IMG/VR virus record: IMGVR_UViG_3300008108_000329
Span: 1 to 31,307 of that record
Strand: one strand, 5' to 3'
Length of the DNA stretch: 31,307 nt
Source of the DNA: a virus
Below the pieces are notes generated by a model. That model was not told the origin of the DNA, searched no databases, and was given only the letters and a program-made list of their open reading frames with translations. Below, one piece after another: positions 16,921 to 24,725 of this stretch. Within the stretch, counting starts at the first letter, position 1. The number at the start of each line of letters is the position of its first letter. A program made the position numbers and the translations under genes.

Positions 16921-17384
16921 GTGAAATTGAAAATAAACAAGAGTCATTAGAGACTGTAAAAGAAGATTCAAATAAGTCTGTTCCATATGCATGGAGTCCA
17001 GACAAAATGTTAGAAGTTTTTCTGATCGAACCAGATAACTTTTTAAAAATTAGAGAAACATTAACACGTATCGGTATCGCAAGTCGTACTGATAAAAAAC
17101 TATATCAATCTTGTCATATATTACATAAACAAGGAAGATATTTTATCGTTCATTTTAAAGAATTATTTTCTTTAGATGGAAAAGAATCTAATATTACTAC
17201 AAACGATATTGAAAGAAGAAATACAATAGCTGTATTACTGGCTGATTGGGGATTATTAAAAATTAAAGATCTTGCTCAAATTTCATCCAAAGCTTCTTTA
17301 AGTCAAATTAAAGTTTTAGCACATAAAGACAAAGCAGGTTGGGAACTTGTGGCTAAATATAATATTGGAAAAAGAGCAAAATAA
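16917..17384 (+). CDS. regA: RegA translational repressor with N-terminal extension
   Basis: RNA-binding protein that represses translation of many early mRNAs by covering their start regions. From residue 31, MLEVFLIEPDNFLKIRETL and TRIGIASRTDKKLYQSCHIL align with T4 RegA from its first residue, and the ending (WELVAKYNIGK) matches T4 WKLVPKYTIGN. The chosen ATG at 16917 overlaps the gene 62 stop (ATGA) and adds 30 residues rich in Glu, Asn and Ser. The alternative ATG at 17007 corresponds to the T4 start but has no Shine-Dalgarno. Several genes in this window have very short leaders, which would affect how RegA can act on them. Confidence 0.94.
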   Translation: MSEIENKQESLETVKEDSNKSVPYAWSPDKMLEVFLIEPDNFLKIRETLTRIGIASRTDKKLYQSCHILHKQGRYFIVHFKELFSLDGKESNITTNDIERRNTIAVLLADWGLLKIKDLAQISSKASLSQIKVLAHKDKAGWELVAKYNIGKRAK

Positions 17385-17540
17385 ATGTTTTATATTTGGC
17401 ATACTTTATTAGTAGTTGCTTTTATAGTTATGGCATTCTTTATGGGTCTTATTTTAGGTAAGAAAATAGACTCAAAGACACGAAATTTAAGCTTATTGAA
17501 TAAAAAAAAAGATAATAAATTCAATAACTTGAATAAATAA
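17385..17540 (+). CDS. Small single-pass membrane protein after regA
   Basis: A 51-residue protein beginning MFYIWHTLLVVAFIVMAF. Residues 6-25 form one hydrophobic segment ending in GLILGKK; the C-terminal half is basic and Asn/Lys-rich, predicted cytoplasmic. The ATG follows the regA stop directly, so it is likely translated by reinitiation. No family is recognised; it is short and AT-rich, so confidence is moderate. Confidence 0.6.
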   Translation: MFYIWHTLLVVAFIVMAFFMGLILGKKIDSKTRNLSLLNKKKDNKFNNLNK

Positions 17541-17545
17541 TATTG

Positions 17546-17584
17546 TATAGGTACTAGTAATTTTAAAAATAATACCTATATAAT
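17546..17584 (+). promoter_or_regulatory. Promoter region of the phasin-like/hsp20 operon with inverted repeat
   Basis: TATAGGTA (17546-17553) and TACCTATA (17573-17580) form a perfect 8-bp inverted repeat that overlaps TATAAT (17579-17584). This promoter lacks the TTTACT -35 seen elsewhere in the window. The bases CCTATAT (17575-17581), with CTAG 17 bp upstream, resemble alphaproteobacterial heat-shock sigma (RpoH) promoters as I recall their consensus (CTTG-N17-CYTATNT). Either reading places the transcript start near 17590. Confidence 0.5.
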
Positions 17585-17585
17585 A

Positions 17586-17683
17586 GTGTATATTCGATCG
17601 TTGTATCGAATATAACACACCTGATTGTTCCAATAGTGGAAAGTCAGTAGTAAATAATAACCTTGCTTTCATAGGAGGATATA
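17586..17683 (+). promoter_or_regulatory. ROSE-like RNA thermometer leader
   Basis: A leader of about 93 nt with three successive hairpins. H1: 17591-17598 with 17605-17612, 8 bp, extendable to 17586-17618 with one bulge. H2: 17621-17631 with 17638-17647, 10 bp with one bulged G. H3 covers the Shine-Dalgarno: UUGCUUU (17663-17669) folds onto GGAGGA (17674-17679) over a short loop, 5 nt before ATG 17684. The UUGCU opposite AGGAGGAU, including a G opposite G, is the signature of the 3' hairpin of ROSE thermometers, known upstream of small heat-shock genes in rhizobia and enterobacteria. Heat would melt H3 and expose the ribosome site. The structure was folded by eye. Confidence 0.7.
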
Positions 17684-17887
17684 ATGATAGCACACATAAA
17701 CCAAGCGATTGACACTCTGTCAAACGCACAAAAGTCTGTTGTTGAAACATTCATCAAAGACTCAAAAGTAGCAGAACCAGTAAATTCAATTATTGATGCT
17801 ACTCAAACTTTTAGCAAAACATTAGCAAAATCATTCGTAAGCTTAGGCGAAACATTTGTTGCGAACGTTAGCAAAGGAGGAAAGTAA
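17684..17887 (+). CDS. Phasin-like small helical protein
   Basis: A 67-residue protein, MIAHINQAIDTLSNAQKSVV at the start, made of amphipathic helices with heptad-like spacing of Ala, Val, Ile and Phe (FSKTLAKSFVSLGETFVANV). This resembles the short phasin-type proteins that coat polyhydroxyalkanoate granules or hydrophobic surfaces, but at this length the match is only suggestive. A strong Shine-Dalgarno (AGGAGG) lies 5 nt upstream, inside the predicted thermometer hairpin. The stop overlaps the Hsp20 ATG (TAATG) and the gene's 3' end carries AAAGGAGG for Hsp20, so the pair is co-translated. A phasin-like protein encoded with a small heat-shock protein suggests a chaperone-type role at protein or lipid surfaces. 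Confidence 0.55.
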   Translation: MIAHINQAIDTLSNAQKSVVETFIKDSKVAEPVNSIIDATQTFSKTLAKSFVSLGETFVANVSKGGK

Positions 17888-18339
17888 TGACTAGACTTCC
17901 TACTTTTTTTAATGACGCATTCAAAGACTTCGATAAGTTTTTCGTAGGATTCGATGATCAATTAGCACGATTCCACGATATACACGAGTCATTTGGAAAA
18001 ATGATACCAAACTATCCACCATACAACTTAAAAAAAGTTGATGATAACAAATATGTTATTGAAGTGGCTGTTGCTGGGTTTGCAAAATCAGATATTGAAA
18101 TCACATTAGAAGATGACAAATTAATCATCAAAGGTGAATCAAAATCTGACGAAACAAAATCAGATTCAAAAGATATTGAACTATACAAAGGTATAGCAAA
18201 TCGTGCATTCGAAAGATCGTTTGCATTATCTGATAACATCGAAGTAAAAGATGCTCAGTATCTAAATGGTATGTTAAAAGTTGTTCTAGAAAGAATAATC
18301 CCAGAACACAAAAAACCAAAAAAAATAGCAGTAAAATAA
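17887..18339 (+). CDS. Small heat-shock protein Hsp20
   Basis: Alpha-crystallin-type chaperone holding unfolded proteins in a refoldable state. Residues about 38-140 form the alpha-crystallin domain: YPPYNLKKVDDNKYVIEVAV, AGFAKSDIEITLEDDKLIIKG, a variable loop, IANRAFERSFALSD, and YLNGMLKVVL. The end IPEHKKPKKIAVK contains the I-x-V type C-terminal anchor. At 150 residues the length is normal. Hsp20 genes are common in marine T4-like phages and may help fold or assemble virion proteins. Expression is probably heat- or stress-responsive through the leader upstream of the phasin-like gene. A hairpin follows at 18356. Confidence 0.95.
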   Translation: MTRLPTFFNDAFKDFDKFFVGFDDQLARFHDIHESFGKMIPNYPPYNLKKVDDNKYVIEVAVAGFAKSDIEITLEDDKLIIKGESKSDETKSDSKDIELYKGIANRAFERSFALSDNIEVKDAQYLNGMLKVVLERIIPEHKKPKKIAVK

Positions 18340-18355
18340 TAATACTGTTTTAAGA

Positions 18356-18387
18356 GGATTGGTAGAGTTTAATTATTCTACCAATCC
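18356..18387 (+). terminator. Hairpin after hsp20, possible terminator
   Basis: GGATTGGTAGA (18356-18366) pairs perfectly with TCTACCAATCC (18377-18387) over a 10-nt loop. The following bases are AAATTTATT and not a T run, so termination efficiency is uncertain. It marks the end of the heat-shock pair and may also protect the mRNA 3' end. Confidence 0.55.
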
Positions 18388-24272: not shown

Positions 24273-24725
24273 ATGAAAAAAATATTATTAGTTGGTTCGT
24301 TAATGTTCTTAGGAGCATGTGCTGGTAATTTGTCTAAATTAGATGGCAAAGCATCAGTTGACGGAAACGAAGATTTAATTAAAGTTGCAGCATTAGTATG
24401 TAATGAATTTAAATCTACTGATACAGTATTATATGGCTGTGGTTCTGGTATATCTTCTGATATGGAGTTATCAAAATCAAAAGCAATATTAAATGCTAAA
24501 ATTTCAGTTGCTGACGTGTTATCAAACAGCTTAACAAAGCAAGAAACAATGGCAACGACTGAAAGTACAAAAGACGGAGTAAATCGTCAGTATCAGTCAA
24601 CCGAGAAAAACCAAACATTTGAACAATCTTTGACAAAATATAAAGTTGTTTATGATAAACAATTTTTAGATCAAGGAAGATTCAGATCTTTTATAGTGAT
24701 TGAGTATAAAGTAAAATCTCTATAA
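24273..24725 (+). CDS. Lipoprotein, LPP20-like
   Basis: A 150-residue lipoprotein: signal MKKILLVGSLMFLGAC with lipobox LGAC and lipidated cysteine at residue 16. The mature domain contains YGCGSGISSDMELSKSKAIL followed by NAKISVADVLSNSL, the pattern of LPP20-type lipoproteins (a G-x-G-S block, then an Ala/Lys-rich helix), and a final beta strand (RSFIVIEYKV). A strong Shine-Dalgarno AAAGGAGG lies upstream. A phage lipoprotein facing the periplasm may block superinfection or assist lysis; LPP20-like proteins of bacteria are outer-membrane lipoproteins. The role here is inferred only. Confidence 0.65.
   Translation: MKKILLVGSLMFLGACAGNLSKLDGKASVDGNEDLIKVAALVCNEFKSTDTVLYGCGSGISSDMELSKSKAILNAKISVADVLSNSLTKQETMATTESTKDGVNRQYQSTEKNQTFEQSLTKYKVVYDKQFLDQGRFRSFIVIEYKVKSL

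Follow-up and report, generated by a model that had tools for sequence, protein, structure and literature searches.

A candidate ROSE-like RNA gate in the leader of a T4-like phage hsp20 operon and its counterparts at other viral hsp20 loci

The DNA considered here, referred to throughout as the window, comprises 31,307 nucleotides (positions 1 to 31,307 of IMG/VR record IMGVR_UViG_3300008108_000329) and is a stretch of a T4-like phage. Its genes run in the order clamp loader genes 44 and 62, regA, a 67-aa ORF, hsp20 and DNA polymerase. The regA gene ends at 17384, and a leader with several predicted hairpins (Table 1) is situated between that point and the start of the 67-aa ORF. The 67-aa ORF, the stop codon of which shares one base with the start codon of hsp20 in the sequence TAATG, is the first gene of the operon. 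The Hsp20 identity, which had been proposed in a first-pass annotation of this DNA, is borne out by the Pfam and PHROG matches listed in the table.

Table 1. Features of the hsp20 operon and its leader, in window coordinates
Feature	Position	Strand	Evidence and remarks
TATAAT, possible -10 box	17579..17584	+	adjoins the 5' side of H1; present in close relatives; weak
Hairpin H1, loop CGUUGU	17586..17618	+	in minimum-energy fold; covariation
Hairpin H2, bulged G17627, loop AAUAGU	17621..17647	+	in minimum-energy fold; covariation
Anti-SD CCUU-g-CU containing the ROSE motif UUGCU, G17665 bulged	17661..17667	+	predicted fold
Alternative hairpin UGCUuUCAU / AUGAuAGCA	17664..17692	+	start codon hidden, SD in loop; predicted fold
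Shine-Dalgarno (SD) AGGAGG, paired with anti-SD	17673..17678	+	predicted fold
67-aa ORF, first gene of the operon, family not recognised	17684..17887	+	27 relatives in viral contigs
Hairpin closing the hsp20 SD (GGAGGA, 17876-17881) by pairing with the hsp20 coding start	17866..17914	+	predicted SD-open probability 0.05-0.08, 5 to 45 °C
hsp20, 150 aa	17887..18339	+	PF00011 E 1.1e-18; phrog_432 E 2.7e-43
Terminator-like stem 3' of hsp20	18356..18387	+	13 pairs, 5 of them G-C; shuffle mean 0.3 such sites in the region

The product of the 67-aa ORF has a best Pfam match at E 0.078 and a best PHROG match at E 0.12, and a search of the phages collection returned no relatives at E up to 1. It had been described as phasin-like, a label that finds no support and is rejected, since a Pfam search with the window protein and seven relatives, read up to E 10, includes no phasin model; in this search the HMMER filters discard most matches above about 0.1. 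Small proteins are encoded before hsp20 in many of the related loci. They are mostly about 60-80 aa long with a common IDTIQ- or IDSIQ-like N-terminus, and they match no known family in Pfam or PHROG. On the DNA side, a sigma-70 scan returned no plus-strand promoter in the region of the possible -10 box. Directly 5' of the leader, at 17541-17585, lies an A+T-rich inverted repeat (TATAGGTA...TACCTATA) that is largely retained in close relatives.

The leader had been drawn as three consecutive hairpins, and folding recovers all three. The first two, H1 and H2, are both present in the minimum-energy fold at 37 °C, with a z-score of -3.03 and a stability equalled by 2 of 200 shuffles. The third brings the Shine-Dalgarno sequence of the 67-aa ORF into a helix with an upstream anti-SD. 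Its letters and coordinates had been given correctly; its register had been read as UUGCUUU on GGAGGA with a G opposite a G and has to be revised, as the fold instead sets CCUU-g-CU on AGGAGG and leaves G17665 bulged. Like ROSE-like thermometers, the leader has a U(U/C)GCU motif that pairs imperfectly with the SD in the hairpin nearest the 3' end, and with H1, H2 and the SD hairpin it falls within their range of two to four hairpins of which the upstream ones are stable.

Prediction of the SD hairpin (17661-17678) depends on the length of the RNA and on the temperature. On its own (17655-17686; -6.8 kcal/mol at 20 °C, -3.4 kcal/mol at 37 °C) it is the minimum-energy fold at 10, 20 and 37 °C. 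In an RNA that ends at the AUG it is the minimum-energy fold at 10 or 20 °C but not at 37 °C, and with 30 bases of coding sequence it is so at 10 °C. The RNA folding proposed as a check in the first-pass annotation comes out in favour of H1 and H2 at 37 °C, and of the SD hairpin under some of these lengths and temperatures only. With coding sequence included, a hairpin that hides the AUG is predicted to displace the SD hairpin at 20 or 37 °C and to be favoured from about 15 °C.

Comparative evidence within the clade of the window comes from 11 leaders found among 27 close relatives of the 67-aa protein which, with the window, give an alignment of 12 sequences and 11 distinct rows. Across the distinct rows 4 of the 13 pairs of H1 are changed on both sides with 97.9% of cells paired, and for H2 the figures are 3 of 11 pairs and 100%. 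The 7 double-sided pair changes in H1 and H2 compare with a shuffle mean of 1.4, and none of 500 shuffles reaches 7. The six pairs of the SD hairpin are invariant in this alignment. As far as the aligned sequences go, covariation within the clade therefore backs H1 and H2 and not the SD hairpin. The leader, 17586-17690, is real, structured and conserved. A lack of covariation in homologous leaders had been put forward as grounds for abandoning the proposal; covariation is in fact present, in H1 and H2 within the clade and in the SD helix of more distant phages.

The SD hairpin was followed into these other viruses with the motif X3-G-CU...AG-X'3, sought from 650 bases upstream of hsp20 to 60 bases into it, with a start codon required after the motif. 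The fairer counts are those for loci chosen by protein only, namely four viral sets, a set of 206 loci and a test on 162 ORFs described below. In the four sets, for which the best 80 loci were kept per protein scan, the ROSE motif lies upstream of Hsp20 in 16 of 16, 61 of 61, 5 of 5 and 71 of 71 distinct loci, with reversed controls of 0, 0, 0 and 1; the sets overlap in part, and identical or short upstream regions (9, 18, 0 and 9) as well as two loci without a detectable Hsp20 had been dropped. Together with later scans, and after removal of duplicates between sets, these make up the 206 distinct viral loci, of which 204 have the motif, one match (GGU/GUU) perhaps by chance, compared with 11 of 206 for the reversed control. 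The two loci that lack it are those of Vibrio phages (L394 and L395), both with an Hsp20. For 22 named phages, chosen from 496 matching records, the literal motif is present in 19, S-TIM5 (L407) carries a compensated form, CAC/GUG, and the remaining two, again the Vibrio phages, have neither. In relatives the gate is placed either directly on hsp20 or before a small ORF; a crude count puts the latter at 59 of 171 leaders, in one of which (L184) the small ORF is Hsp20 itself. The last motif match falls inside the small ORF in a few loci (L048, L288).

The SD of these leaders is not uniform, including forms such as AAGGAC and AAGGUGG, and the anti-SD varies in step with it whilst the bulged G and the CU...AG pairing stay constant. 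The helix is GUC/GAC in 73 of 86 leaders, GUU/GAC in 4, CAC/GUG in 3, CUC/GAG in 3 and AUC/GAU in 1; the other two (L429, L442) were scored as unpaired by a script that took an earlier AG and do pair on reading. These 86 leaders, duplicates included, come from loci related by their Hsp20 to S-TIM5 and S-H9-1 (7 and 80 loci, the best 80 being kept per scan), with the cut-off locus L465 omitted. Among 15 distinct aligned SD hairpins, 2 of the 5 pairs are changed on both sides. The number of double-changed cells and the covariation score both exceed all 500 shuffles, and the number of double-changed pairs is within chance (84 of 500 shuffles as high). Alignment A8, restricted to 6-base loops, took the place of A7, in which the SD was unaligned; the rows of A8, like those of alignment A4 of the upstream hairpin, were picked by searches that demand pairing, so that their 100% of paired cells arises partly by construction. 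Judged from the sequences, the covariation of the SD helix appears to be the strongest evidence for selection on SD pairing.

The gate is specific to hsp20. Of 162 SD-bearing ORFs elsewhere in the same loci a single one has the motif, and this proves to be the hsp20-operon leader of a cut contig. A scan of viral contigs for the exact motif, made without regard to genes, finds an Hsp20 within 1600 bases in 61 of 80 loci, which are those examined from 120 fetched among the matches listed. By reading, the 19 others include 4 contigs cut just past the hsp20 start (L138, L150, L164, L181), 3 with a small ORF after the motif (L142, L170, L177) and 11 chance-like matches. In the one locus left of these 19, a viral contig, the same anti-SD/SD motif stands before the start of a peroxiredoxin-like gene, AhpC-like by reading (L122:2479-2495, minus strand). 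Of 11 records searched for the pattern CTCGCTN{2,8}AGGAG, 5 contain it a single time, at hsp20, and 6 lack it, among them three from the clade of the window with its UUGCU form; written backwards, it occurs twice in one record.

Most of the relatives have a further hairpin upstream of the SD hairpin, and a search that allows any single bulged base finds that base to be G in 202 of 230 leaders, a sample that includes bacterial and motif-selected leaders and from which the hairpin-less L163, L265, L306 and L327 stand apart. In alignment A4, which consists of 17 chosen leaders of one geometry with a 4-base loop, 5 of the 7 pairs of this stem show changes in both partners, a number that 169 of 500 shuffles equal; in A5, with 74 distinct rows fitted to the model, the figure is 4 of 7 (equalled by 322 of 500). 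In both alignments the double-changed cells and the score exceed all shuffles, and the number of pairs does not. Two earlier alignments, A2 and A3, were out of register (L058, L117 and L124 in A2; L166 in A3, where the SD was also unaligned) and were replaced by A4. To judge by these sequences, the layout of most relatives, with a bulged-G hairpin, an A-rich linker and a bulged-G SD hairpin, is that of the Rfam family ROSE_3, and H2 of the window, with its bulged G, may be a diverged counterpart of ROSE_3 hairpin I.

The Rfam ROSE models had been named as a further check, and here the expectation failed: no ROSE model matches the window at the gathering threshold, and at E up to 10 the interval 17480-17780 has six matches, none of them ROSE. 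Nor does any of 20 relatives have a ROSE match at gathering. ROSE_2 gives 94.9 bits to the leader of Salmonella ibpA, which served as a positive control. We do not regard the miss in the window as decisive, because related phage leaders match ROSE_3 at the same spot below the cut-off. Six such matches lie at the hsp20 leader (L109 and L111 out of 5 loci; L402, L404 and L397 out of 15 phage loci given, from 17; and L158), with scores of 21.6-30.6 bits, the best in L402 (30.6), compared with a cut-off of 43. The sole ROSE match above cut-off in a phage-named record is that of an unverified 'Pseudomonas phage Y7' (L393, OQ572409.1), the Hsp20 gene of which carries a ROSE_3 match of 69.2 bits; this leader may be host DNA in the record. 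As the window fails with Rfam and the phage leaders remain below threshold, the element is called a ROSE-like variant rather than a member of an Rfam ROSE family.

A model built from 17 other viral leaders (R1, viral sequences only) gives a weak match in the window, where the leader is the best of 12 matches over the 31 kb (10.3 bits, E 0.28) by virtue of its SD hairpin, with hairpin I mostly skipped. When 13 whole records were scanned, the hsp20 leader was the best R1 match in 11, one of which (L111) had helped to build the model, and six weaker matches elsewhere have E 0.16-0.80. Two whole records from the clade of the window have no match at E up to 1; in 27 loci of the clade the one match listed for each is at the leader, with E 0.29-2.6. 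Of 85 viral loci, 80 have an R1 match upstream of hsp20 (10 of these had been used in its construction), the 5 misses being two of the clade of the window and three with short upstream sequence, and it matches 14 of 17 further named phages. In bacteria, mostly SAR11, 58 of 80 loci match at E below 0.01. R1 misses both bacterial ROSE control leaders, Salmonella ibpA and Y7, and matches the Salmonella ibpB intergenic region at E 0.006.

Among the closest known systems is the ibpA thermometer of Pseudomonas, which controls a small heat-shock gene and is described in the available part of PMC3669281 as a short ROSE-like element of two hairpins, the second with U(U/C)GCU opposite the SD and with G39 opposite the SD. 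ROSE_3 (RF02523) probably models this thermometer. The phage leaders share with it the two hairpins, the U(U/C)GCU at the SD, the small heat-shock gene and, in the ROSE_3 consensus, one unpaired G per hairpin. The window differs in having the extra hairpin H1, a longer inner stem in H2 and a gate on an upstream small ORF. The enterobacterial ibpA leaders (ROSE_2, RF01832) likewise precede Hsp20 with an SD hairpin that contains this motif, but ROSE_2 has no match at the phage leaders on which it was run (at gathering, at E up to 10 and at E up to 2). The hsp20 leaders of SAR11 and other bacteria, mostly from Pelagibacteraceae, resemble those of the phages in that 58 of 78 have the literal motif; of the 20 that do not, 12 printed ones have AAUCGCUUAAGGAGG. 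Some SAR11 hsp20 leaders (L316-L332, for example L320) have AAUCGCUUAAGGAGGAUUA, with which a different hairpin could form that has the SD in its loop.

Few RNA thermometers are named for phages in the accessible text of PMC11182007, which gives lambda cIII and SPbeta blyA (a fourU element) and adds a sigma70 leader; the part available of PMC10586365 also reports a phage-leader RNA structure that responds to temperature, and those of PMC2864753 and PMC7576135 name RNA thermometers in general terms only. The lambda cIII, SPbeta blyA and sigma70 fourU elements are thermometers in phage leaders, yet as far as these partial texts go none is ROSE-like or drives a chaperone. The statement made at the outset that no phage-encoded ROSE element had been described accords with our searches of open-licence papers, which found no report of one.

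Predictions of how the SD would open were made with ViennaRNA. For the window leader cut at the AUG, the SD-open probability is 0.03 at 5 °C and rises to 0.21 at 45 °C, similar to the rise from 0.01 to 0.17 over the same range predicted for a ROSE_3-positive Pseudomonas leader cut in the same way. Several other phage leaders are nearly flat with temperature, S-TIM5 stays shut and L410, cut at the AUG, is predicted to have its SD open throughout (0.77-0.95). Nor does a closed SD set the leader apart, because among 10 SD-bearing starts folded in the window at 15 °C those of regA (0.01) and of an ORF at 24273 (0.02) are predicted to be as closed as the leader (0.07). The opening predictions are thus mixed and appear weak either way.

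Since the SD hairpin covers the upstream small ORF, control of hsp20 must be indirect. The SD of hsp20 itself is predicted to be locked in a hairpin of its own (Table 1), and in relatives from the clade at 20 °C it is predicted to be shut in 4 of 6 (0.02-0.08 in L007, L008, L016 and L022) and less so in L021 (0.23) and L011 (0.49). From this predicted closure and the TAATG overlap, control of hsp20 probably passes by translational coupling from the 67-aa ORF.

The leader is, in our judgement, probably a ROSE-like cis-acting RNA gate that opens on warming, with hsp20 coupled to the 67-aa ORF. At low temperature the anti-SD CCUU-g-CU would lie on AGGAGG and bar ribosomes from the 67-aa ORF, the bulged G keeping the helix from becoming too stable to melt as the temperature rises, whilst H2, together with H1 in the clade of the window, would serve as stable upstream support hairpins. 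With its SD locked, hsp20 would be translated mainly by ribosomes that finish the 67-aa ORF at TAATG, so that a single opening event would turn on both genes. By analogy with the known thermometers, the phage chaperone would probably be made only once the lock has been opened, by warmth or by damaged proteins. The proposal of the first-pass annotation, a ROSE-like element at the head of a phage Hsp20 operon, is upheld in its SD-blocking hairpin, U(U/C)GCU motif, unpaired G, conservation and covariation, and not in its register or in an Rfam hit.

The main rival to the thermometer reading is autorepression in the manner of IbpA. According to this, the leader would be mainly a feedback operator through which the phage Hsp20 represses its own translation, with unfolded clients titrating Hsp20 and temperature acting indirectly. 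The available text of PMC10474464 reports that E. coli IbpA represses its own mRNA via the ibpA 5' UTR and that Arg93 is required. The matching arginine of the phage protein, R106, placed by counting residues in an alignment with Salmonella IbpA, is invariant in 10 of 10 phage Hsp20 proteins, is also present in L410 and is replaced by Q in Salmonella IbpB; moreover, 107 aligned columns show 50% identity between the Hsp20 of the window and Salmonella IbpA. However, R106 is a single residue within a conserved domain, and the same source has small heat-shock genes carrying a thermometer and ibpA answering to IbpA as well, so that the two kinds of control are not exclusive. Autorepression as the main role of the leader is considered unlikely.

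The AUG-hiding hairpin raises another alternative for the clade of the window, in which the leader would be a two-state device that adopts either the SD hairpin or the AUG hairpin rather than a ROSE hairpin that simply melts. Both hairpins are predicted, with UGCU common to the two and with the AUG form taking over at the temperature given above, and the bases of the AUG hairpin are mostly retained in close relatives. The AUG arm codes for Met-Ile-Ala, however, and so its conservation may be for the protein. Furthermore, one pair is broken by a U to C change in 3 of the 12 aligned rows (L008, L009, L012), no pair changed on both sides was noticed in that 12-row alignment, and an uncounted reading of the printed starts of other phages revealed no AUG arm. 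Such a switch is rather improbable.

A third alternative, in which the CUCGCUU stretch would be either a DNA element (for instance a Pho box) or the operator of some different protein (for instance RegA, the gene of which ends 300 bases upstream), is very improbable. PMC10976474, in the part available, lists in its Table 2 a putative Pho box ATTCAAACTCGCTTAAATA upstream of hsp20 in cyanophage S-PM2 with the same letters as the anti-SD, and also reports that PhoB does not bind the S-PM2 hsp20 upstream fragment and that the gene does not respond to low phosphate. A DNA site also fails to explain base pairing that covaries. The ROSE-like gate offers an alternative reading of that putative Pho box.

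On the broader scale we lean slightly towards the view that ROSE-like gates are near-universal on hsp20 of marine and freshwater T4-like phages and of some others, and are common to these and SAR11. Viruses would thus sense temperature or protein damage by RNA and time their chaperone by it, the clade of the window having two locks in the form of a ROSE gate on the small ORF and a locked hsp20 start opened by coupling. A large viral branch would thereby join the ROSE class, and the gate would give a directly testable link from sea or lake temperature to phage gene expression.

A further element was noticed before the ROSE unit of many relatives. A GGGATGGGA-like motif, none of which was seen in the window leader, is found in 70 of the 95 leaders of relatives for which 250 or more upstream bases are present (for example L043:2903-2977, L103:1352-1427 and L249:1403-1478); Rfam at gathering returned nothing but tRNAs on 20 loci. 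In 25 short cases a script draws an H-type pseudoknot, the linker of which is mostly A-rich and the stems of which differ in sequence, the drawings for L273 and L297 being of another kind; 9 of 300 shuffles score as high.
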